From contig JACREY010000015.1 in NCBI GenBank assembly GCA_016218085.1, positions 62,001 through 126,000 on the forward strand: a stretch of DNA of 64,000 nucleotides, in the 5' to 3' direction. The notes below the pieces were generated by a model. That model was not told where the DNA came from. It worked only from the letters and a program-made list of their open reading frames with translations, and ran no database searches. Source of the stretch: Ignavibacteriota bacterium (lineage in GTDB: Bacteria; Bacteroidota; Ignavibacteria; Tepidaquicellales; Tepidaquicellaceae). A program made the position numbers and the translations under genes. Each line of letters opens with the position of its first letter. The first letter of the stretch is position 1. Below are positions 1,305 through 12,376 of this stretch, one piece after another.

Positions 1305-2593
1305 TATTTATAAAATTTATCCAATAAATTATCGTAAATGTTAATTAAGTTTTGCATTGTAATATCCTTATCATAATATTTTCTTGTGATTTCCCTGCAG
1401 TTTTCGAATTCCTGAATATTATCAAGCATGTATGCTGCTTTATGGTATAGATCTTCATTCGAGCCGAATGTTCTTCCTATCCTGTTTATTTCTTCCATCG
1501 GAGCAGGAAGATGGATTATGTTGTAGCTAAGTGCTGGTATCCCGCAAGCCAGTGCCTGGATTGTTGCCGTACCAAAACCTCCGAAAGTTCGGTATAAATA
1601 ATCATCGATTGCCAGCGAATAAATATCAGCAGACTGGTAATAATCAAGCAGTTTCTGTTCCTGAACCCTCTCAACCAGTATTGCCCCTGCCTGTTTTGCC
1701 TTTTCATAAGATGAATTGTGCTTATATCCCCCCACAAGCAGAAGTTCGACATTATAATTGTTCTCTTTTAAACGTTTAAAAGTGCTCAGCAGATTATCCA
1801 CACCGTTAAACGAATCAAATCTCCCGACGTAAAGAATAATTTTTTTATCAACAGGCAATCCGAGCTTTTTCCTTATTTCAGTCTTATTCCCGGGCCTGAA
1901 ATAATTAAAGTCGACTCCATCCATATAATAAGATACACTTTTCAGTTTTAAATCATCTTTCAGAAAATCGTATTCGAATTTCGAACCGGATAAATAATGT
2001 GTAATATATTTAAATATTTCTTTTTGCTTCTTGTATGTTATCAGCGAAACCGGATTTTTCTTCCTGAATTTGTAATCGAAGTTCGAAAACCATCCCCCCC
2101 TGTGTTGATACAGAACAGGAACGTTCAGCGGTTTCAACTTTAAAAGTAACCAGGTAATAAAATTCGAATGTCCGTCGTGAATATGGATAAGGACTTTCTT
2201 TTTCGATTCGATTATTTTCTTTATTTCCTCAAAATAACTTTTAGACCAAAGCCAGCTCATGAATCTTGGTACTTTAAAAAATCTCGATGGAAAGGCTTTG
2301 TGCAGTACACCCTCGAACATTTTTTCATAGCTTCTCCCAATACTGTTCCAGTAAGGCCTCCAGCATTCAATATTATATTTGTCTGTTCTGTTTAATGTAT
2401 CAACTGCAATTTTATGATCAAAATCCTCGAAGAAACCTACCCAGTAAGGAAATTTGTCTATTCTGATGAATTCTGCATTATCGTGCCTGCTGATATATTC
2501 TTCCGGAGTTTTGTAATTAAGACACACCGGGTTCGGCCTGTGAGAAAGCAGATGAATTATTGTCGGCTTGTTTTTGTCTTCTGCTGTTTCCAT
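1304..2593 (-). CDS. Glycosyltransferase family 4
   Basis: A 429-residue GT-B retaining glycosyltransferase. The C-terminal half carries the typical GT4 block: KKIILYVGRFDSFNGVDNL (about 251-269), a VELLLVGG strand, and the acidic nucleotide-sugar region around FGGFGTATIQALACGIPALS near residue 370, where the family's usual E-x7-E is degenerate. The N-terminal half has the looser acceptor domain with HIHDGHSNF near 137. Its ATG overlaps the last base of the wbpG stop codon, so translation is probably coupled. It adds one sugar to the repeat unit of the cluster's polysaccharide; which sugar is not visible. Confidence 0.87.
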   Translation of the reverse strand: METAEDKNKPTIIHLLSHRPNPVCLNYKTPEEYISRHDNAEFIRIDKFPYWVGFFEDFDHKIAVDTLNRTDKYNIECWRPYWNSIGRSYEKMFEGVLHKAFPSRFFKVPRFMSWLWSKSYFEEIKKIIESKKKVLIHIHDGHSNFITWLLLKLKPLNVPVLYQHRGGWFSNFDYKFRKKNPVSLITYKKQKEIFKYITHYLSGSKFEYDFLKDDLKLKSVSYYMDGVDFNYFRPGNKTEIRKKLGLPVDKKIILYVGRFDSFNGVDNLLSTFKRLKENNYNVELLLVGGYKHNSSYEKAKQAGAILVERVQEQKLLDYYQSADIYSLAIDDYLYRTFGGFGTATIQALACGIPALSYNIIHLPAPMEEINRIGRTFGSNEDLYHKAAYMLDNIQEFENCREITRKYYDKDITMQNLINIYDNLLDKFYK

Positions 2594-3732
2594 TATTTTA
2601 ACTTCCTTGTATATTTATCATAAAAACTTTTTGGGATTCTATCAAGTTTGTACATGAGCCAGAAAAACGGTCTCATTATTTCGAATGTTTTCTTGTATGT
2701 CCTGAAATCCCTGAATGTCTTATGCGGCATTGTCATCAACCTTTCAAATTCATCGTCACTGAAACCAAGGCGCTTTTTTATCAAGCTGATAATTTCATCC
2801 TCAAGATAAGGCGGTTCTTTCAGCAATTTCAGGCCTTTCTCCCTGTCAAGCTGCCCGCTTCTGATAAGTGCCGAAAATCCGTTTATCCTTGAATCAATTC
2901 CGAATCTTCTGGGCATAAAATAACTGTGGTAAAACGCAGTAAACCTGTTTTCAAGATGATGTCCGCCGTACCACTTCCAGTCAAAATCCTTTTCCAGGAA
3001 TTTCATTACCTCATCTTTATCATATTCAACATAATACAACGGCCTTATCATTTTTATGTTTGAAAATATCAGCCATTTAATAAATCTTCCCAGTTTCATA
3101 TTCGGATAAGTCCGCAGCTTCATTGTTCCGTGTTTTTTCTGAACGGATTCAATATATTTACCGTCCATATACAGCATCCCAAGGGGGGAAATTCCCTCCG
3201 TTCTGAAATTATGACCCTCAAGTATGTATTTAATTTTGAATTTTTCCGCAGCAATCCTTAAAGTTGCTGCATATGCTATGTCAGTCGGTGCTTCAATATC
3301 CTTTACGCCTGATTTTAAAAAGGACCTGTATATGTCATCATATTCTTTATTGTCAACTACGAGAGTATATAAATCCACATCCAGTTTCTTCAGAACCTTT
3401 TTAATATTCTCTGTTGCAATAGTCGAATTCCACGTGTTATCAAAATGCACAGCCAGCGGTCTAAGCCCCAATTCCTTCATTTTGTAAACCATGAATGATG
3501 AATCACATCCCCCGCTTACTCCAATCATGCAATCATATTTCTTATTTCTTCCGTCGTGCTTTATCCTGGTTATGATACCTTTGAGGATTTTTTCGCCTCT
3601 TTCATCGTTCGGATATTCCTGCTCCATCTTCTCAATGTTCCTGCAGTAATTACATATCCCTTCTTCATCAAATGATATTCCAGGTACATTTCCATCATAA
3701 ATGCACCTTTTACAAATTTTTATATTTTCCAT
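2593..3732 (-). CDS. wbpG: N-acetyl sugar amidotransferase (WbpG/PseA family)
   Basis: A 379-residue adenylating amidotransferase of the PP-loop superfamily. Seen: an N-terminal zinc-binding Cys set (CKRCIYDG and CNYC, residues 7-29), the PP-loop GVSGGCDSSF near 70, and an ILEGHN motif near 165. In Pseudomonas, WbpG works with dedicated HisH and HisF paralogues to turn a sugar N-acetyl group into an acetamidino group; HisH frees ammonia from glutamine and HisF channels it. Both partners lie nearby at 5425-6838, separated from this gene by a formyltransferase-like and a deacetylase-like gene. The product is probably an acetamidino-modified aminosugar or aminouronic acid. The family call is firm; the exact substrate is inference. 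Confidence 0.9.
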   Translation of the reverse strand: MENIKICKRCIYDGNVPGISFDEEGICNYCRNIEKMEQEYPNDERGEKILKGIITRIKHDGRNKKYDCMIGVSGGCDSSFMVYKMKELGLRPLAVHFDNTWNSTIATENIKKVLKKLDVDLYTLVVDNKEYDDIYRSFLKSGVKDIEAPTDIAYAATLRIAAEKFKIKYILEGHNFRTEGISPLGMLYMDGKYIESVQKKHGTMKLRTYPNMKLGRFIKWLIFSNIKMIRPLYYVEYDKDEVMKFLEKDFDWKWYGGHHLENRFTAFYHSYFMPRRFGIDSRINGFSALIRSGQLDREKGLKLLKEPPYLEDEIISLIKKRLGFSDDEFERLMTMPHKTFRDFRTYKKTFEIMRPFFWLMYKLDRIPKSFYDKYTRKLK

Positions 3733-3747
3733 TTTAGCAGTTGTGAA

Positions 3748-4686
3748 TTAAGATTTCCTTATACTATTAAGTTTCCCCCTCAAGAAAATCTTGCCAGTAT
3801 AATTTAAGACAAGTAATAATCCCATATTGCATTTAATAATAAAATTACCGTTGTCGAAGACTTCCACAATTTCTCCGGTTACAGCATTTTTGTATACTAT
3901 CCGTGTATCAAAAGGCTGAGCTTTCCATATCGTAATTTTTTTACCGCCCAGGAAAGTAAATGCTCCCGGATATGGCTTTGTAATAGCCCTTATAAAATTA
4001 TATATTTCAAAAACATTTTTATTCCAATCTATCAAACCGTCTTCAGCTGTCCTTTTCGGATAATATGTCGGTTTTCCTTTTTGCTGTCTGAATTTTACAT
4101 TTCCTACAAATAATTTCGGAATCCATTCGAGCAGCACCCTTTTTGTGATAATTGAGTTTTTATAATAAAGCGTTTTGCAATCATCCCAGTCGTTAATATC
4201 AAAGATTTCATAATAAAAAATGTCCCCGTCATCTATTCCGTTTTTTATCAGGAAGTACTGAATTATAAATCTTTTCTTCCCTTCTATTAAAGACCAGTTT
4301 ATCGGTGACCTGCCTCTGCCCTTTGGAAGAAATTCCGAGCTCCCGTGAACACCGACAGCCCCGATTTTAATTGTCTCAAGCACTTCAGACGGAAAAAGTC
4401 TCTGCCATCCACCCTGAATAAGCAAGTCAAATTTCATTTTCCTGAAAAACGCTGTATCCTCCGGCGCGGTCAGGGAATATTTTTTTGCATAATAAACAGG
4501 TACTGAGTATTTCTTTGCAAGGTCCTCGAAAGATTTATATCCGGATACTTTCGCCTTCTTTGCTTTCTCCTTTGTTAACGTAACAAAATGACTGATTCCG
4601 ATGCCGCTCTCCAGCAGAAATTTTATAACTTCCCATCCGGATTCGTGGCATCCGCACATTACTATTTTCTTGTTTTTCATTTTCAC
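3748..4686 (-). CDS. Formyltransferase-family protein (sugar N-formyltransferase-like)
   Basis: A 312-residue protein of the Fmt/ArnA formyltransferase fold, which uses 10-formyl-tetrahydrofolate. Seen: the N-terminal strand KIVMCGCHESGWEVIKFL, then VGVHGSSEFLPKGRGRSPIN (about residues 112-131), and the catalytic Asp in GIDDGDIF near 152. The classical catalytic Asn of the N-x-H motif is Gly here (GVHGS), as I recall for some sugar-cluster homologues, so activity needs testing. A C-terminal OB-like domain follows (KPYPGAFTF onward). The GTG start at 4686 overlaps the upstream stop; an ATG at 4680 is an equally good start. Placed inside the amidino-sugar cassette, it probably N-formylates an aminosugar in the same polysaccharide. 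Confidence 0.78.
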   Translation of the reverse strand: MKMKNKKIVMCGCHESGWEVIKFLLESGIGISHFVTLTKEKAKKAKVSGYKSFEDLAKKYSVPVYYAKKYSLTAPEDTAFFRKMKFDLLIQGGWQRLFPSEVLETIKIGAVGVHGSSEFLPKGRGRSPINWSLIEGKKRFIIQYFLIKNGIDDGDIFYYEIFDINDWDDCKTLYYKNSIITKRVLLEWIPKLFVGNVKFRQQKGKPTYYPKRTAEDGLIDWNKNVFEIYNFIRAITKPYPGAFTFLGGKKITIWKAQPFDTRIVYKNAVTGEIVEVFDNGNFIIKCNMGLLLVLNYTGKIFLRGKLNSIRKS

Positions 4687-5432
4687 CAGTCTATGTGGTT
4701 TCTTTTAAACTTTCTCAGTACAGCAAGGTATTTATCTCGTGTCTTTGATGCTCTTCCGTCTATACACCGCCAGACACGCTCTTTAGGCGACATAACTTTA
4801 TCCTGCCACCATTCGGGGTGAAGGAGTATCTGAATTGAGTTTTCTTTTGCAGACATCAATACTTCCTGAAGCCTGTTATGCCTCCAGTATCCGTTAGAAT
4901 CCGATATATACGAAACTTTATTTTTAAAAAACTCTGCATAAGTATTTACCATTCCGGTATATCTGTATTTTGTACAGCTAAGTGCAAACTTATCAGGATT
5001 GTGAAAAGAAAAAACCTGAATTCGTGTATCAAATAAATTCTCAAAAAATTTTTTTTCCGATTTCAGTCTTCTGACCAGTTCAGATTCGTCCTTAATACGG
5101 TAATAATGACAATCAAAATGCAGTCCTATCCTGTGTCCAAGCTTGATGATTCTCCTGACTATTCCGGTAATTTCAGGCTCGAGAAGATTGTAAAAATCGC
5201 TGTGAGGCAAAATAAAATATGTGGATTTGATATTAAGTTTCTTTTCGATTTTTGCAAGTGCAAGTGCAGAGTTCATCGAGAAATCCACATCATGCCTTAG
5301 ATATATCGTCTTGCTTAAAACTCTCTGACTGCCGTAAAATACAAACCTGTAATTCATGCGTGCAGTCCTTAGAATCTTCAAATAATTCTTTCTTGTAAAA
5401 TCATTAAAATGATATTTTATAGAATTATCCAA
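4683..5432 (-). CDS. Polysaccharide deacetylase-like (NodB fold) protein
   Basis: About 250 residues with NodB-like signatures: YLRHDVDFSMNSALALA (metal-binding Asp pair), STYFILP, then GHRIGLHFDCHYY and SFHNPDKF, and a late histidine in LLHPEWW. These match a distant branch of carbohydrate esterase family 4 found in O-antigen clusters, likely removing N-acetyl groups or acting as a sugar hydrolase. No signal peptide is seen, so it probably acts in the cytoplasm on a precursor. The start is uncertain: TTG at 5432 just overlaps the end of the hisF-like gene and keeps the conserved YHFNDFTRKNY segment; an upstream TTG at 5474 is also open but would overlap by about 50 bases. It lies between the hisF-like and formyltransferase-like genes. 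Confidence 0.72.
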   Translation of the reverse strand: MDNSIKYHFNDFTRKNYLKILRTARMNYRFVFYGSQRVLSKTIYLRHDVDFSMNSALALAKIEKKLNIKSTYFILPHSDFYNLLEPEITGIVRRIIKLGHRIGLHFDCHYYRIKDESELVRRLKSEKKFFENLFDTRIQVFSFHNPDKFALSCTKYRYTGMVNTYAEFFKNKVSYISDSNGYWRHNRLQEVLMSAKENSIQILLHPEWWQDKVMSPKERVWRCIDGRASKTRDKYLAVLRKFKRNHIDW

Positions 5433-6216
5433 TGTAATATTCTTTATTATTATTAAAATTAAGTACGCCTTCAAGTTCCTGCCTTGTGGGATAGTTTACA
5501 AGTACTCCAAGGTCTTTACCCTGATAAACAAACATACTGCCTGCTGCAACGGCAGAAGCTCCGCCCTCATAAACAGCATTATGAAAATCGTTTATTTTTC
5601 CTGCCCCGCCCGAAGCTATTAGCGGAATTGATATCCTGTCTGTAATTTTTTTTATAAAATCTATATCATAACCACTCCAGGTACCGTCCCTGTCAACCGA
5701 ATTAAGAAGAATTTCACCCGCACCGTAATCTTCAGCCATCAGAATAAATTCCATAGGGTCTGCCTTTTTTATTTTCTTCTTCCCCTGATAATAAATTTCA
5801 AGCTTTCCAAGCAGATTCTTTTTAACGTCGACAGAAACAATCACACTCTGGCTACCGAATAAATCTGATGCAATTTTTATAAATTCTGGATTTTCAAGTG
5901 CATATGAATTAATAGCAATTTTCTCAACACCGATTTTATGAATTTTATATATTTCCTCTATATTCCTTATTCCGCCTCCGTACGTAAACGGCATAAAACA
6001 TTCATTTGCAATATCCTCGATTATCGAAAAATCCGGATTTAATCCCTGTTTCGACGCTGCAATATCCAGGAATATAAGTTCATCAACTTCCATCTGATTG
6101 AATATTCTTACAGTATTAATCGCATCACCAATGTAATTAAACTTTTTAAACCTTACGGTTTTTACAAGCGACTGATTGTGTAAAAGAAGACATGGTATTA
6201 CCCGGATGTTAACCAT
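5425..6216 (-). CDS. hisF: HisF-like ammonia-channel partner of WbpG
   Basis: A 263-residue (beta-alpha)8 barrel homologous to imidazole glycerol phosphate synthase subunit HisF. Seen: RVIPCLLLHNQSLVKTVRF at the N-terminus, FTYGGGIRNIEEI near 77, VSVDVKK near 127, LNSVDRDGTWSGYD near 170 and PLIASGGAGK near 198. In true HisF the first motif carries the catalytic Asp (CLDV); here it is Leu, while the later Asp residues are kept. The same loss is known for HisF2-type paralogues linked to WbpG. No other histidine gene is in the window, so it most likely passes ammonia from the HisH-like protein to WbpG and does not make histidine. It overlaps hisH by 8 bases. Confidence 0.88.
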   Translation of the reverse strand: MVNIRVIPCLLLHNQSLVKTVRFKKFNYIGDAINTVRIFNQMEVDELIFLDIAASKQGLNPDFSIIEDIANECFMPFTYGGGIRNIEEIYKIHKIGVEKIAINSYALENPEFIKIASDLFGSQSVIVSVDVKKNLLGKLEIYYQGKKKIKKADPMEFILMAEDYGAGEILLNSVDRDGTWSGYDIDFIKKITDRISIPLIASGGAGKINDFHNAVYEGGASAVAAGSMFVYQGKDLGVLVNYPTRQELEGVLNFNNNKEYYIG

Positions 6217-6838
6217 TATTTACTTTATATTCTATAAAATTTTTTAAGAGTTGTAATCCGTACTTATGACTTTTCTCAGGATGGAACTGAACACCGAAAA
6301 TATTATTTCTCTGCAATGCAGACGTAAACTCTATTCCATAAAGTGTTTTTAGTATTACGTCTTCTTCATTTTCACAAACAACATGATAAGAATGGACAAA
6401 ATAGAATCTCGATTCGCTGTACATATTTTCAAGCAGTTCGGACTCTCTGATTTTCTTTACATAATTCCAGCCCATATGCGGAATCTTCAGGTTATTGTTA
6501 TTTTCCTTGAACCGGAATTTTATTGTCTCGCCACTTATCCAATTCAGGCCTTCCTGAGTTCCTTCCTCGCTTCTGCTTGAAAGGAGCTGCATCCCGAGAC
6601 AAATTCCCAGAACCGGTATTTTATCCTCAAGAACCCGCCTGTTAAGCAAATCTATAATATTTAGGTGATGAAGATTCTTCATTCCTGCATCAAATGAACC
6701 CACTCCGGGAAGTATCAGCTTTTCGGCATTTTCAATATCCTTTATTTCAGATGAAATGATTACATCCTTTGTGAATTTTCGTATCATGTTCCGAATCGAC
6801 CCGACATTCCCCATCCCATAATTAATAATAACAATCAT
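6209..6838 (-). CDS. hisH: HisH-like glutamine amidotransferase
   Basis: A 209-residue class I glutamine amidotransferase. Seen: N-terminal INYGMGNVGSI, the nucleophile elbow PVLGICLGMQLL (Cys near residue 80) and the His-Glu pair in GVQFHPEKS near 188, so the catalytic triad is complete. It hydrolyses glutamine to ammonia. In histidine synthesis HisH pairs with HisF; here the overlapping HisF-like gene has lost the cyclase Asp and wbpG lies 2.5 kb downstream, so the likely job is ammonia supply for sugar amidination. The start overlaps the stop of the hexapeptide acyltransferase gene. Confidence 0.9.
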   Translation of the reverse strand: MIVIINYGMGNVGSIRNMIRKFTKDVIISSEIKDIENAEKLILPGVGSFDAGMKNLHHLNIIDLLNRRVLEDKIPVLGICLGMQLLSSRSEEGTQEGLNWISGETIKFRFKENNNNLKIPHMGWNYVKKIRESELLENMYSESRFYFVHSYHVVCENEEDVILKTLYGIEFTSALQRNNIFGVQFHPEKSHKYGLQLLKNFIEYKVNNG

Positions 6839-7413
6839 TTCTGCTTTTTATCGTAAATAAATTTAGCTTTACCTTTAAATATTTTCACGCTTCCGATTTT
6901 TTTTGCAGGATTCCCTGCCATAATAGAAAATGGCTCAACATCTTTATTAACGAAACTTAAAGCACCCACAACTGAATGATTACCGATTTTGACTCCGTTT
7001 TTAATAACTGAATTCGGACCGATAAAACAATAACTGCCTACTTTTACCGGCTTTCTTTCGTACCGGGACTTGCCTTTCGTCACTGCCCAGCTTACTGAAT
7101 TATGCGAATATATATGCACCCCAGAGGAAATACTGCAATTGTCACCTATCTCCAGACCGCCTGTTCCGTCAAGGATTGTGAATGGACCAATCCACGTGTT
7201 CTTACCGACTTTCACATCACCGTAAACATAACTGCTCTGATAAATGCTTGTGTCTTTCCCGAATCCGAGTTCGCGTGCCCTTTCCCACCTGTCTGATAAG
7301 TATTCCTGAAATGGCAAGTCACGCTTCCATTTTTTACGGTATTCGGTCTTGAGTTTTTTGAAAAGATTTTTTAAATCTTCCTCCTGAGTTCCCGAATCTG
7401 TATTTTTTTTCAT
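6835..7413 (-). CDS. Hexapeptide-repeat (left-handed beta-helix) acetyltransferase
   Basis: A 192-residue protein whose residues 60-170 show the hexapeptide pattern of a left-handed beta helix (VGKNTWIGPFTILDG, IGDNCSISSG, VGSYCFIGPNSVI, IGNHSVVGALSFV) followed by AGNPAKKIG, the usual end of acetyltransferases of the WbpD/PglD/NodL group. The first 55 residues are charged and helical. It probably uses acetyl-CoA to N-acetylate the amino group of a nucleotide-linked aminosugar, which would give the N-acetyl group that WbpG later amidinates. The order (acetyltransferase just before hisH and hisF) supports this. It overlaps hisH by 4 bases. Confidence 0.86.
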   Translation of the reverse strand: MKKNTDSGTQEEDLKNLFKKLKTEYRKKWKRDLPFQEYLSDRWERARELGFGKDTSIYQSSYVYGDVKVGKNTWIGPFTILDGTGGLEIGDNCSISSGVHIYSHNSVSWAVTKGKSRYERKPVKVGSYCFIGPNSVIKNGVKIGNHSVVGALSFVNKDVEPFSIMAGNPAKKIGSVKIFKGKAKFIYDKKQK

Positions 7414-7415
7414 AT

Positions 7416-9293
7416 CTATTTATTGAATATTTTATTCCACCATTCGAAGCAAACCAGCGACCAGATGAAAAGCCTGTGATTGACCCTGCCGTCGAAATGC
7501 TGCTTCATCAGCTTCTGCGCTGTCTCAGGCTGTATATAATCATAAATGTATGCTTTTTTGTCAAACAAAAGCTTCATAATATATTCTATGCTTTCGCCCT
7601 TGAACCAGCTTGCATCCGGAGCAGAAAATCCCTGCTTGGAATTCTTCAGGTACATCTTCGGGACATAATCCGACAGAACTTTCCTCAGTATGTTCTTCCC
7701 GCCGTTATTTTCCTGATAGAACTTGTTTTCCTTCGAGCTTAAATCATTCTCATTAAGCCTTGCCATTTTCGTCAGGCTTTTCAGTTTGTATTTAACCGGT
7801 ATCCTCATTGCAAAATCGACAAGCTCATTATCCAGAAAAGGCACCCGCGTTTCTAGGCTGTGTGCCATGCTGAGCTTATCTTCCACAACCAGCAGACCGT
7901 GAAGGAATGTTTTTATTTCAAAATACAGTGAACGGTTCACGTATTCTTCAGGAGTTTTTACCTCGCGGGGATTTTCGTTTATTACATTTCTGAAAATGTC
8001 TTTTGTGCTGTGTCCCTTTAATAAACGGTTTACCTCCGGAGTGAAGAATCTTCTTTTCTCATTGTCATTAATCAGTCTCTGCCAGTAATCATAATATTTA
8101 TCGACATAATTATTTCTGTCGGTGTTTTTGACAGCCCTGTAATACCTCCACGGATAGCCTGCAAAAAGTTCGTCACCGCCTATGCCTGACAATGTTACTT
8201 TTACAAATTTACTTGCCAGTCTTGAAACATAAAAGTTTGGATAAGATTGTCCCACCCTCAGGTCTTCAAGATGTCGTATGAGCTTACTCATCACTCTTTC
8301 CATATCCCCTGCTTTCAGAACAATCTCATAATGCTCGGTCTTGTATAGGTTGGAAAGATATTCAGCCCTTACCCTTTCATCAAAAGCAAGCTCTAGTCCG
8401 CTCGCTGAAGATAAATCAAAACCACAGGTAAAAGTTTTTATGCTCGGGAAATTTTTCGCCGCAATACATGTAATCGAACCGGAATCCAATCCTCCGCTAA
8501 GATATGAACCTATTTCCACATCACTTTGAAGCTGTCTTTCTACTGCCTGTTGAAAAAGCCTTTTCACTTCCGTTATGCAATCATCTTCTTTAAGATTATT
8601 GTCATCTTCAAAATTATAATCCCAGTACTTTTGAATATGCACTTTTTTCTTCCTGCTGTAATTTATTTCCAGAGTTGTTGCAGGCGGAAGAATTTTAATA
8701 TTCCTGAATAGGGTCAGGTCAGTGAAAATATTCTGAAATGAAAAATATTCATTTAAAGCTTCGAGTGAAACTCCGAAATTATATTTAGGGTGTTTTAGAA
8801 TCGCCTTTATCTCTGATGCAAAAAGAAACAGGCCTTTATCATAATAATAATAAAGGGGTTTTATACCGTAACGGTCCCTGGCAATGAATAACCTTTTTTC
8901 TTTTTTATCCCAGATGGCAAAAGCAAACATGCCGTTGAATTTCTTTACGCATTCCTTACCCCATTCAGCATAAGCATTCAACACCACTTCGGTATCGCTT
9001 TTTGATATAAATTTATAGCCAAGGGATTTCAACTCAACCTTTAAATTTCCGAAATTATACAATTCTCCGTTATATGTAATTATATACCTTCCATCTTCAG
9101 TCTGCATCGGCTGATTTCCGAGAGATGAAGTATCTATGATAGAGAGTCTCCTGTGTCCGAAGCCGATAAATGAATTCACCCAGAATCCTTCTGCATCGGG
9201 ACCTCTGTGGCTGATAACATTAGTTATCTGCTTCAGCAGATTGATTGATATCGGTTCTTCGTTAAGGTTATATATTCCGGTTATTCCGCACAT
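7416..9293 (-). CDS. asnB: Asparagine synthase (glutamine-hydrolysing) family protein
   Basis: A 625-residue AsnB-type enzyme. The N-terminal Ntn domain begins MCGITGIYN (Cys2 nucleophile) with HRGPDAEG and YNGELYN; the synthetase domain has the PP-loop SGGLDSGSITCIAA near 270, GIGGDELFAGYPWRYY near 385 and ETRVPFLDNELVDFAMRIP near 490. It uses glutamine nitrogen to amidate a carboxylate through an adenylate. Inside polysaccharide clusters, AsnB relatives such as WbpS are thought to amidate uronic acids, and that is as likely here as free asparagine synthesis. It sits 2 bases from its neighbours on both sides, so it belongs to the operon. Confidence 0.93.
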   Translation of the reverse strand: MCGITGIYNLNEEPISINLLKQITNVISHRGPDAEGFWVNSFIGFGHRRLSIIDTSSLGNQPMQTEDGRYIITYNGELYNFGNLKVELKSLGYKFISKSDTEVVLNAYAEWGKECVKKFNGMFAFAIWDKKEKRLFIARDRYGIKPLYYYYDKGLFLFASEIKAILKHPKYNFGVSLEALNEYFSFQNIFTDLTLFRNIKILPPATTLEINYSRKKKVHIQKYWDYNFEDDNNLKEDDCITEVKRLFQQAVERQLQSDVEIGSYLSGGLDSGSITCIAAKNFPSIKTFTCGFDLSSASGLELAFDERVRAEYLSNLYKTEHYEIVLKAGDMERVMSKLIRHLEDLRVGQSYPNFYVSRLASKFVKVTLSGIGGDELFAGYPWRYYRAVKNTDRNNYVDKYYDYWQRLINDNEKRRFFTPEVNRLLKGHSTKDIFRNVINENPREVKTPEEYVNRSLYFEIKTFLHGLLVVEDKLSMAHSLETRVPFLDNELVDFAMRIPVKYKLKSLTKMARLNENDLSSKENKFYQENNGGKNILRKVLSDYVPKMYLKNSKQGFSAPDASWFKGESIEYIMKLLFDKKAYIYDYIQPETAQKLMKQHFDGRVNHRLFIWSLVCFEWWNKIFNK

Positions 9294-9294
9294 T

Positions 9295-10236
9295 TTATTT
9301 TTTCCTTGCTATCACTGTAAATCCTGCTTCCTGTTTATTAAAAAGTTCAATTTCCAGATTAGCTTTCCGGCAATATTCCCTTATCTCATCCTCAGTATGC
9401 CTTCTGCAGTTCAGAGGCCTGAACCAGTCAAAGTTCAGATGATTCATTTCATCGAGGGTATATTCCGGCCTGTAATAAGCTTTGAAAATGTTCCAGTATA
9501 TAAATCTCTGAAGGTCAACCTCACCCCTCTTAATGCCTAAAAACGGAATATCGTCCGGTACATTTAATTTTACATTCAGCCTGCCCATTTCCTGACCCAG
9601 CTTCGTTAGCGGTTTTAATGCTTCCCAGGCCTCTTCATCGGTCATAGTACTTAGCTTTTCTCTGATGTAATCATCGGTAAACTCCCTGATTACAGATTTT
9701 TTTGCATACACATAGAACATGAAAATCCCGCCCTTCTTCAGTTTCCTACTAAGATAAATAAGTGCATCTTCTGTGCTGTCAGTATGGTGAAGTACTCCTT
9801 CGGAAAAAATTATATCCACAGTTTCATCTGCAAACGGTAAATCAAGTATGCTTGCCTGCAGAAATTCACCTTTTATTCCTTCTTCTTTAAATCTTTCTTC
9901 CGCTACCCCAACAGAATCCGATATATCAACTCCGAGATAATTATTATAGTTCAGCTCTTTACCGAATAAAAGCAACGCCGATAATCCGCTCCCGCAGCCG
10001 GCATCCAAAATAATTTTATCACCTCCCACAAGCCAGTCTTTAACAGCCTCCTCCTTATTATCGCAATATCTTTCGATGAGCCAGTCCTTTACCCTCTTTT
10101 TTGCAGCGTCCGAATCATACGAATCCCTTATTGCCCACTTGAATCCGAATGTGTTTTTCGTCTGCTCCTGATTATCAGAATATCCTGCTTTCTGATAACG
10201 CTTTTCCTCTATACCTAGTTTTTTAAGTGCCGGCAT
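9295..10236 (-). CDS. Class I SAM-dependent methyltransferase
   Basis: A 313-residue methyltransferase. Motif I is IILDAGCGSGLSALLLFG near residue 75; GVDISDSVGVAEERF follows, then DIIFSEGVLHHTDSTEDAL near 135, the post-motif segment typical of type 11 methyltransferases, and LKKGGIFMFYVYAKK near 165. The C-terminal region RPLNCRRHTEDEIREYC is often seen in methyltransferases of sugar clusters. The target could be a sugar hydroxyl or carboxyl; the sequence does not say. It lies between asnB and a DegT aminotransferase with gaps of 1-2 bases. Confidence 0.88.
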   Translation of the reverse strand: MPALKKLGIEEKRYQKAGYSDNQEQTKNTFGFKWAIRDSYDSDAAKKRVKDWLIERYCDNKEEAVKDWLVGGDKIILDAGCGSGLSALLLFGKELNYNNYLGVDISDSVGVAEERFKEEGIKGEFLQASILDLPFADETVDIIFSEGVLHHTDSTEDALIYLSRKLKKGGIFMFYVYAKKSVIREFTDDYIREKLSTMTDEEAWEALKPLTKLGQEMGRLNVKLNVPDDIPFLGIKRGEVDLQRFIYWNIFKAYYRPEYTLDEMNHLNFDWFRPLNCRRHTEDEIREYCRKANLEIELFNKQEAGFTVIARKK

Positions 10237-11405
10237 TATTTTATCTTAAAATTTTTTATGTATTCGATTATGTAATCCGATTCTTCTTCCTTTAAAGAAG
10301 GAAAAACGGGAAATGCAATACTGCATTTATCTGCTATCAGTGAATTCATATAGCTTTCTGATTTTATGCAGTATTTTTCATTATAATAAGCAAGGTTGTG
10401 AACTGCATGGGTTCCCGGTCTTGTCGAAATTCCTTTTTCAAAAAGGTAGTCCATAAATTCATTTCGCATCAAATTCACTTTATCGAGATTTCCTGAATTA
10501 ATTTCCTCAGGTTTGAACAAGCATACATATGACTGATACCCGTGAACATAGTCTTTTCCAACAAATGGCTTTACCAGCCAGTCAATATCACTTAATTCCC
10601 TTGAATACTTATCGGCAATCTTTTTTCTTGATTCATAAATCTCAACTGCCCTTTCCATCTGAGAAGAACCAATTGATGCCTGAATATCGGTCATTCTGTA
10701 ATTATAACCGAGATACGGAAATTCGGGAAGTAAATAAGGCTTATTCTGTAAATGCCTCTGCAGATCTGACATTGCGGCACCGTGATCTCTCAGAGAACGA
10801 AGCTTTTCATATAATTCGCCGTTATTAGTTGTAATCATCCCTCCTTCACCGGTAGTAATTGCTTTTCTTGGATGGAAACTGAAACAGCCTGTATCACCGA
10901 AATTACCGACGTGTATATTCCTGTACTTAGCGGCAAATCCGCAAGCCGCATCTTCAATAACAAAAAGACTATTTTTTTCTGCAATATATTTTATTGCATC
11001 CATATCAGAAGGCAATCCGAAAAGATGCACGGGAATTACTGCTTTAGTTTTTTTTGTTATCAGTTTTTCAAATTTTTTTACATCTAAATTGAAAGTGGAA
11101 AGCTCAATATCACAAAATACGGGTTTAGCACCTGTATACTCGACTGAATTTGCCGTAGCAATCCAGGTAAAAGCGGGAACTATTACCTCATTTCCCTCCT
11201 TCACGCCTAAAGCCGCTAGCGACAGATGCAGTCCTGTTGTACAGCTTGTCACTGCAACCGAATTTGCCGCTCCCGTAAACTTACACCATTTATCCTCGAA
11301 TTCCTTAACAAAAGGTCCCTGAACCACCCATCCTGATTCAAGCGGTTTTCTTATATTTTCAAAATCCGCATCTGTGAATTCTGTTTTTGCTATGGGAATC
11401 TTCAC
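10236..11405 (-). CDS. DegT/DnrJ/EryC1/StrS-family sugar aminotransferase
   Basis: A 389-residue PLP enzyme. Seen: TSCTTGLHLSLAALG near residue 53, VIPVHLFGLPSDMDAI, VIEDAACGFAAKYRN and the Schiff-base lysine in CFSFHPRKAITTGEGGMI near 185. The Lys is present, so it should be a true transaminase and not a dehydratase of the ColD/RfbH type. It converts a nucleotide-linked keto-sugar (made by an SDR) to an aminosugar. The start is GTG at 11405, overlapping the TAG stop of the upstream SDR by one base. The upstream SDR at 11405-12376 is the natural partner. Confidence 0.92.
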   Translation of the reverse strand: MKIPIAKTEFTDADFENIRKPLESGWVVQGPFVKEFEDKWCKFTGAANSVAVTSCTTGLHLSLAALGVKEGNEVIVPAFTWIATANSVEYTGAKPVFCDIELSTFNLDVKKFEKLITKKTKAVIPVHLFGLPSDMDAIKYIAEKNSLFVIEDAACGFAAKYRNIHVGNFGDTGCFSFHPRKAITTGEGGMITTNNGELYEKLRSLRDHGAAMSDLQRHLQNKPYLLPEFPYLGYNYRMTDIQASIGSSQMERAVEIYESRKKIADKYSRELSDIDWLVKPFVGKDYVHGYQSYVCLFKPEEINSGNLDKVNLMRNEFMDYLFEKGISTRPGTHAVHNLAYYNEKYCIKSESYMNSLIADKCSIAFPVFPSLKEEESDYIIEYIKNFKIK

Positions 11406-12376
11406 TATTCGCTCCTGTTGAATTTATGGTTTTTTCTCCATTCTATCAGCTTCAGCAATCCCTCTTTTAACCCGGTTTTATATCTGAAGCCAAGATCTTT
11501 CTCTGCGAGTTCGGTGCTTCCGATTCTGTTAGTTACAAAGGTCAGTCCGGCAGGTTCATACTGAATTTTCAGATCAGAACCTGTCAGCTCAAGAAGCATT
11601 TCGCAAACCTCCTTTATTGATGTTGATATTCCGCTTCCTACATTGTAAAATCTGTCATTAGCATTGCTCTTCAGTGCCTTAATATTTGCATCCGCAACAT
11701 CCGATACGTAAATAAAATCATAACTCTGGCTTCCGTCTCCGTAGACAATCGGCGGCAGACCATTATCAATCCTGTCAAGTATTTTCATAATTACTGCTAT
11801 GTATGTTCCCTTATAGTCCTGTCTTGCTCCATAAACATTCATATATCTTAATCCCACATAAGGCAGTCCATATCTTTCATTAAAAGCCCTGCACATTGCT
11901 TCACCTGCAATTTTTGTTGCTCCGTAAAATGTCCTGTTATTAAAAGGATGATCTTCGGACATCGGGAGTTCTACCGCATCTCCGTAAACAGATGCGGATG
12001 ATGAATATACAAGTCTTTCGATATTGTTGTTTCTGCATGCTTCCAGTACGTTGAATGTTCCTCTTATATTCACATCAAAAGCTGACCTTGGATATTCATA
12101 ACATTGAAGAAGCCATAATGCAGCAAGATGAACAACCGTGTCACTTTCTTTTACTGCCTTTTCAAGAATGTCAGTCTGTTGAATGTCACCTCCGATTTCA
12201 AAAACCCTTACCCTGCTGTCTTTCAGAGCATCCTCAATGTTTTCCCGGGTTCCTCTGCAGAAGTTATCATAAACTATGACACTCTTAACATCCTCAGCAA
12301 GTAAACCGTCTACAACGTGTGAACCGATAAATCCGGCTCCGCCGATTACCAGAACGTTTTTACCTTTAATATCCAA
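11405..12376 (-). CDS. NAD-dependent nucleotide-sugar epimerase/dehydratase (extended SDR)
   Basis: A 323-residue extended SDR. The Rossmann motif VLVIGGAGFIGSHVVDGLL is at residues 8-26, VVHLAALWLLQ near 86, and the active-site set YSSSASVYG plus FYGATKIAGEAM (Tyr-x-x-x-Lys) near 122-160. A strong ribosome site AAGGAG lies 7 bases before the TTG start at 12376, which settles this unusual start. The fold fits UDP-glucose/UDP-GlcNAc 4-epimerases and related dehydratases; the substrate is not clear. It follows the flippase gene with an 11-base gap and precedes a DegT aminotransferase. Confidence 0.9.
   Translation of the reverse strand: MDIKGKNVLVIGGAGFIGSHVVDGLLAEDVKSVIVYDNFCRGTRENIEDALKDSRVRVFEIGGDIQQTDILEKAVKESDTVVHLAALWLLQCYEYPRSAFDVNIRGTFNVLEACRNNNIERLVYSSSASVYGDAVELPMSEDHPFNNRTFYGATKIAGEAMCRAFNERYGLPYVGLRYMNVYGARQDYKGTYIAVIMKILDRIDNGLPPIVYGDGSQSYDFIYVSDVADANIKALKSNANDRFYNVGSGISTSIKEVCEMLLELTGSDLKIQYEPAGLTFVTNRIGSTELAEKDLGFRYKTGLKEGLLKLIEWRKNHKFNRSE

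Follow-up and report, generated by a model that had tools for sequence, protein, structure and literature searches.

A pair of genes of histidine type, hisH and hisF, lies within a glycan gene cluster in the window analyzed here (64,000 nucleotides of one contig of an Ignavibacteriota bacterium), and this raises the question of whether the two proteins serve histidine biosynthesis or a different route. The earlier note had described wbpG, a HisF-like and a HisH-like gene as one operon, in which wbpG and hisF are separated by two genes, one formyltransferase-like and the other NodB-like, and had interpreted them as a WbpG/HisH2/HisF2 amidination cassette for an aminosugar of a polysaccharide. 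All five open reading frames (5/5) were found where it had placed them; they are transcribed from the minus strand in the order hisH, hisF, NodB-like, formyltransferase-like, wbpG, and the proposed role is supported. The five genes and their neighbors are the following:

11405..12376, minus strand: NAD-dependent nucleotide-sugar epimerase/dehydratase (Pfam Epimerase 195 bits; GalE/LegB-like, below the curated cut-offs)
10236..11405, minus strand: DegT/PseC-like sugar aminotransferase (Pfam DegT_DnrJ_EryC1 359 bits; PseC 287 bits, below its cut-off)
9295..10236, minus strand: SAM methyltransferase, optional module member (Pfam Methyltransf_11)
7416..9293, minus strand: AsnB-like glutamine amidotransferase (TIGR01536 460 bits; N-terminal MCGI; PP-loop SGGLDS)
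6835..7413, minus strand: hexapeptide-repeat acetyltransferase, likely N-acetyl donor step (Pfam Hexapep)
6209..6838, minus strand: hisH2 glutaminase (TIGR01855 246 bits, cut-off 105; matches to HisH in the PDB; Cys/His/Glu triad)
5425..6216, minus strand: hisF2, AglZ/HisF2 family (NF038364 354 bits, cut-off 310; Asp11 replaced by Leu)
4683..5432, minus strand: NodB/CE4-like putative sugar deacetylase, 249 aa (start by comparison with locus L114; predicted fold CE4)
3748..4686, minus strand: formyltransferase-like protein, ArnA/FMT fold (Pfam Formyl_trans_N and Formyl_trans_C; alignment to ArnA; structure model)
2593..3732, minus strand: wbpG/wbuX-like N-acetyl sugar amidotransferase (TIGR03573 258 bits, cut-off 203; motifs as in PMC10607449)

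Genes resembling those for Wzx, Wzy, Wzc and Wza are found further along the same cluster (for Wzy the match falls short of the cut-off), and none of the nucleotide-sugar enzymes reached a named equivalog at its curated cut-off. Chance or an assembly error as the source of the arrangement can be ruled out by its gene-for-gene recurrence in L114, a locus of another Ignavibacteriae genome.

HisF and HisH could in principle form the imidazole glycerol phosphate synthase with which the cell makes its histidine. HisH does score far above the cut-off of the histidine-pathway model, and an orphan HisA-like gene, the lone histidine-pathway gene found besides the HisF/HisH pair, is located on contig 3. 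However, the pair is embedded in a glycan cluster, HisF falls under the cut-off of the true hisF model TIGR00735 (222 against 294.6 bits) and does not possess Asp11, the residue that true HisF uses as the general acid of the cyclase (PMC11350729), and family searches in the genome (98% complete, 22 contigs) found no hisG, no hisD and no true hisF. A histidine operon without its own hisF and hisH, which according to the earlier note would have spoken against the cassette, is likewise not present. Since hisG, hisD and true hisF are absent from this genome, we conclude that the pair is not there for histidine synthesis, and we regard the opposite view as extremely improbable. In the sister genome of L114, too, there is no true hisF over the cut-off.

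What, then, is the significance of the missing aspartate? As the earlier note had observed, HisF has CLLL in place of CLDV: the window protein reads ...RVIPCLLLHNQSL... where true HisF has ...CLDV.... In the alignment, position 11 is thus Leu, while Asp130 and the ammonia-gate residues Arg5, Glu46, Lys99 and Glu167 are retained; the numbering is that of Thermotoga HisF, fits a collinear alignment to 1gpw (residues 4-243 on 4-241) and agrees with the names D11 and D130 used in PMC11350729. The same pattern was found in the 36 HisF-like proteins of 35 loci, where Asp130 is kept in 35, Arg5 in 35 and each of Glu46, Lys99 and Glu167 in all 36; Asp11 occurs in a single one, which falls outside the AglZ/HisF2 family. 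The special meaning that the earlier note had given to this loss is therefore not borne out, because it is the rule for a named family, and its interpretation as a peculiarity or a sign of decay was rejected. A HisF devoid of Asp11 is the normal state of AglZ/HisF2 (NF038364) and no lesion; the window protein shares with that family the HisF fold, the loss of Asp11 and a score above the curated cut-off, and no essential difference was found between the two. This form of HisF is already named and serves sugar amidination in many bacteria and archaea.

The company of HisF2 points in the same direction. In the window it forms one operon with HisH and a WbpG-type amidotransferase, a linkage that is usual in its relatives, and HisH lies within about 10 kb in 71 of the 79 WbpG loci. 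In six loci, each belonging to a different genome, HisF2 is fused to the N-terminus of WbpG, with examples in Opitutia and Microbacterium, and these fusions are also without Asp11; they support the idea that HisF2 is an ammonia conduit from HisH to WbpG. Seven genomes have no HisF2 in the locus, and in six of them it was found elsewhere in the genome. The Chitinophagaceae loci L177-L188, apparently without HisF, were considered as a different system, an idea abandoned when HisF2 turned up elsewhere in five of the six genomes.

HisH retains its triad (GICLGMQ and FHPE), as previously noted. WbpG carries the PP-loop SGGCDS and a tetracysteine site, CKRC...GICNYC, whose cysteines are invariant in the WbpG alignment; these correspond to the motifs SGGxDS and CxxC...[GN]xCxxC (zinc site) by which this type of amidotransferase has been defined (PMC10607449), and a phmmer search matched the protein with LpNASAT (8wex). 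The same work assigns to WbpG the formation of the acetamidino group at C-3 of ManNAc3NAmA. We suggest that the cassette very probably amidinates an N-acetyl (or N-formyl) amino sugar bound for a Wzx/Wzy-type surface polysaccharide, with HisF2 acting as the ammonia conduit. The catalytic steps, the substrate and the polymer are proposed from gene content, gene order, families and residue states. HisH2 would release ammonia from glutamine, and this would pass through the barrel of HisF2, for which Asp11 would not be needed, since HisF2 would perform no cyclase chemistry of its own. WbpG, a PP-loop ATPase, would use ATP to activate the N-acyl amide of the sugar, and ammonia would replace the oxygen to give an acetamidino sugar. 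Once the epimerase/dehydratase has acted, the DegT aminotransferase would probably introduce the amino group, which the hexapeptide acetyltransferase would probably acetylate. As a guess, the AsnB-like enzyme may form a uronamide or take part in the amidation, and the NodB-like and formyltransferase-like proteins may together replace the N-acetyl group of this sugar, or of one next to it, by N-formyl.

Among the nearest known systems are those of Pseudomonas aeruginosa O5 (WbpG/HisH2/HisF2, ManNAc3NAmA) and Escherichia coli O145 (WbuX, L-FucNAm), whose polysaccharide loci likewise combine a PP-loop tetracysteine amidotransferase with a glutaminase of HisH type and a HisF2 barrel. Unlike these, the window has epimerase, DegT, AsnB, acetyltransferase and methyltransferase neighbors, and NodB-like and formyltransferase-like genes between hisF and wbpG. 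It adds one member to the already known amidination gene sets. For Sphingomonas sp. LM7 a Wzx/Wzy locus has been described whose genes include WbuX, HisF2 and HisH, together with an aminotransferase and an amidotransferase of the exosortase-associated type, as in the window; the passages describing it mention no NodB/FMT pair, and the likeness is drawn from this description. According to the same passages, WbuX, HisF2 and HisH genes belong to a cell-associated polysaccharide cluster and were hit repeatedly in a colony-morphology screen (PMC11340318).

A further question concerns the two genes inserted between hisF and wbpG. The NodB-like gene probably starts at the TTG at 5432 and not at 5474, the start of the longest reading frame, because with the former the gene overlaps the hisF stop by 8 bases and encodes 249 aa, both exactly as in L114. 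Its product scores 16.2 bits with Polysacc_deac_1 (PF01522), under the Pfam cut-off of 23.1, and its model, of modest confidence (pLDDT 61), shows a NodB/CE4 fold; all 11 of the best Foldseek matches are CE4-type deacetylases or the related ChbG. Fold-match Z values reach 11.8 for CE4 deacetylases and 9.5 for WbmS (BB0128, 3hft), a deacetylase-like protein of the same fold from the Bordetella O-antigen locus, but the resemblance to WbmS is one of fold only (about 11% identity), and many CE4 proteins score at least as high. Asp48, Asp50 and His105 are invariant in the alignment; the second metal-binding His (HxxxH) is present in the window and replaced by Gln in L114. The intact HxxxH was dropped as a sign of activity, the second His not being conserved in relatives, and, judging from these residues, the protein may be altered or inactive. 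The formyltransferase-like protein scores 43.9 bits with Formyl_trans_N (cut-off 26.1), and the top fold match of its model (pLDDT 89.5) is the formyltransferase domain of ArnA (2bln, E 1.7e-28), which formylates UDP-L-Ara4N. The two share the overall fold and the active-site His and Asp, whereas the window protein has no dehydrogenase domain and has Gly for the catalytic Asn (GAVGVHGS versus GAFNLHGS in ArnA; Gly-His-Asp), so that it may be altered or inactive as well. Most of its relatives likewise have Gly there, and the absence of the Asn extends across phyla; the relative in L170 is of the Asn type.

Two other interpretations bear on these genes. It is conceivable that the formyltransferase-like protein supplies an N-formyl group from which WbpG/HisF2/HisH2 then make a formamidino (N-formimidoyl) sugar, either in place of the acetamidino sugar or in addition to it. 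Such a gene lies directly upstream of wbpG, on the same strand and with gaps of 6-126 bases, in seven loci from several phyla (the window, L114, L135, L142, L162, L170 and L192), and the modules of L070, L133 and L170 contain it without a recognized acetyltransferase. Nevertheless, an acetyltransferase is also present in the window and in L114, Gly occupies the position of the catalytic Asn, and neither formimidoyl nor formamidino occurs as a word in the 15 papers listed by a full-text search on polysaccharides; to our knowledge, no formamidino sugar has been described from bacterial polysaccharides. We therefore consider it unlikely that the loci with this gene directly before wbpG act on an N-formyl sugar. 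The concomitant absence of Asp11 in HisF and of Asn in the formyltransferase-like protein might instead be read as steps of a decaying cassette toward loss of function. This appears very improbable, since both losses are common to most homologs across phyla, the reading frames are all intact, with overlaps of the kind seen in a working operon, and L114 has retained the same gene set, its WbpG being 84% identical to that of the window.

As to distribution, the idea that such a polymer is uncommon in this phylum was partly right: HisF2 was found in 32 of the 395 sampled genomes, and an acetamidino sugar has already been documented in Tannerella forsythia (PMC6120980). The gene order had also been called unusual, and this holds for the exact succession hisH-hisF-nodB-fmt-wbpG, found in one other genome only (L114), but not for its parts, as partial adjacencies recur elsewhere, among them fmt-wbpG and a NodB-like gene adjoining hisF, hisH or wbpG. 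Around them a wider module can be recognized, consisting of epimerase, DegT, AsnB-like protein, acetyl- or formyltransferase, WbpG, HisF and HisH, in 33 loci. Cultured carriers of the module include Aquimarina sp. Aq78 (L160) and Pedobacter nyackensis DSM 19625 (L165). Homologs of the AsnB-like protein scoring at least 580 bits occur in 33 WbpG-carrying loci, window included, and form a subfamily linked to WbpG. Eleven of the 33 modules, that of the window among them, possess a SAM methyltransferase homolog of at least 150 bits. The surveyed loci show 23 places where wbpG directly follows a homolog of the hexapeptide acetyltransferase.

The recurring module around wbpG represents a clear target for finding its predicted amidinated sugar. 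Two experimental handles are ready at hand: the natural HisF2-WbpG fusion proteins, and this genome itself, where, in the absence of a histidine pathway, HisF and HisH can serve only the glycan. More generally, the missing aspartate of HisF marks a whole family that reuses a histidine enzyme as an ammonia pipe.

All five open reading frames described in the earlier note (hisH, hisF, NodB-like, FMT-like and wbpG) were recovered in the window, where they belong to the following cluster, given in order of transcription.

Genes of the window cluster (coordinates, strand, product)
12376-11405, minus, epimerase/dehydratase (1st)
11405-10236, minus, DegT aminotransferase (2nd)
10236-9295, minus, methyltransferase (3rd)
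9293-7416, minus, AsnB-like glutamine amidotransferase (4th)
7413-6835, minus, hexapeptide acetyltransferase (5th)
6838-6209, minus, hisH (6th)
6216-5425, minus, hisF (7th)
5432-4683, minus, NodB-like, starting at TTG 5432 (8th)
4686-3748, minus, formyltransferase-like (FMT-like) (9th)
3732-2593, minus, wbpG (10th)

The start of the NodB-like gene was reset to this TTG because the copy in L114, the sister locus from another Ignavibacteriae genome, begins at the equivalent place and likewise overlaps the hisF stop by 8 bases. Neighboring genes share a few bases or are at most about 20 bases apart, as in one operon, and two glycosyltransferase genes lie downstream of wbpG.

In profile searches the window HisF scored above the cut-off of NF038364 (AglZ/HisF2 family acetamidino modification protein), a family found above cut-off in 32 of 395 sampled genomes of the phylum, and below that of true hisF. 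We aligned 36 HisF-like proteins from 35 phylum loci, including the window, with the true HisF of eight genomes of the same phylum. At position 11 all true HisF sequences extending to it carry Asp, whereas the HisF-like proteins have Leu (31), Gln (2), Thr (1), a gap (1) or Asp (1); the Thr and the gap come from copies (L060 or L072, L063) for which the mechanical ORF list gave a misread or truncated N-terminus, and the sole Asp from a divergent copy in L073, whose genome yields no match above the family cut-off. Thus the loss of this Asp, which had been regarded as a special feature of the window protein, is ordinary, since it runs through the whole AglZ/HisF2 family. Arg5 (35/36) and Glu46, Lys99 and Glu167 (36/36 each), the known residues of the ammonia gate, are retained, as is Asp130 (35/36). 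Cyclase catalysis uses Asp11 as its general acid and Asp130 as its general base (PMC11350729). Since Asp130 and the gate residues are kept and Asp11 is absent, the HisF2 barrel is predicted, from the alignment, to be retained as a conduit that has lost the cyclase acid.

The earlier note had also considered that a histidine operon lacking its own hisF/hisH might exist elsewhere in the genome. No such operon was found in the window genome (98.3% complete), in which neither hisG, hisD nor a hisF above cut-off was detected; it harbors only an orphan HisA-like gene (contig 3, L003:9176-9940; 205 bits vs. a cut-off of 229), whose neighbors are not histidine genes. Searches of the three other sampled genomes of the same family and order gave nothing beyond HisA-level matches, and no true hisF above cut-off was found in the L114 genome.

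The search for the five-gene order returned one exact match, hisH-hisF-NodB-FMT-wbpG in the MAG locus L114 (WbpG identity 84%), where genes for the epimerase, DegT, AsnB and acetyltransferase are present as well and the methyltransferase is missing. An FMT-like gene lies immediately upstream of wbpG in seven loci, and a NodB-like gene adjoins hisF, hisH or wbpG in eight, including the window and L114. By our estimate, which assumes two or three FMT-like genes per ~3,500 genes and ignores their joint gathering in glycan clusters, chance would give ~0.1 FMT-like/wbpG neighbors in ~114 loci. WbpG and an AsnB-like protein (at least 580 bits to the window copy) co-occur in 33 loci, window included, and most of these loci also hold counterparts of the epimerase, DegT and acetyltransferase genes; according to record titles, these derive from Bacteroidota, Vampirovibrio, Kiritimatiellae, Opitutia, Alpha- and Gammaproteobacteria, Myxococcales and Blastocatellia.

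The FMT-like protein has an ArnA formyltransferase domain-like fold (model pLDDT 89.5; E 1.7e-28 to 2bln), in which the active-site His and Asp are present and the catalytic Asn is replaced by Gly, a replacement common to most surveyed relatives of this putative formyltransferase. These Gly-type proteins (window 3748-4686 and loci L104-L109, L112, L122, L133, L142, L162 and L192, several beside wbpG) possibly represent a separate subfamily. The NodB-like protein adopts a CE4 fold in a structure model of modest confidence; Asp48, Asp50 and His105 are invariant in its family, but the second His ligand of the classic metal-binding motif is variable. Judging from the company of their genes, the pair could swap an N-acetyl for an N-formyl group; amidination of an N-formyl sugar appears improbable. 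A second, more distant NodB-like gene of the window genome (L097:8108-8878) lies ~36 kb off, 3 bases from an AsnB-like gene.

In a survey of 79 WbpG loci from named genomes, HisF2 and WbpG form a single polypeptide in six, from one Opitutia MAG and five actinobacteria (three Microbacterium, one Aeromicrobium, one Leucobacter); Asp11 is absent from all six.

HisF2-WbpG fusions, 658-789 aa
L140:5766-7820
L143:9161-11146
L145:8777-11146
L150:8777-11146
L167:9158-11134
L190:9161-11149

These fusions lend direct support to the proposal that HisF2 passes its ammonia to WbpG. Split arrangements also occur: six loci of Chitinophagaceae and related bacteria (L177, L179, L180, L181, L185, L188) have wbpG and hisH with no hisF within 10 kb, and in five of these six genomes HisF2 is located elsewhere. 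In L053 (genome G026) and L060 (G239), two wbpG genes flank hisF2 and an AsnB-like gene; hisH was not detected within these stretches, and a second hisF2 and one hisH lie farther along the clusters (L058, L070).

Amidination is documented in several systems. In P. aeruginosa O5, WbpG forms the acetamidino group at C-3 of ManNAc3NAmA, and L-FucNAc is the WbuX substrate in E. coli O145 (PMC10607449); the acetamidino group of M. maripaludis requires the WbpG homologue MMP1081 (PMC2952790), and a Sphingomonas cell-associated polysaccharide is made by a locus with WbuX, HisF2 and HisH (PMC11340318). Acetamidino pseudaminic acid is known from Tannerella forsythia, a member of this phylum if broadly defined, and an AsnB-like protein was proposed for the acetamidino group there (PMC6120980). 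The window cassette belongs to this known kind, with a recurring module around it.
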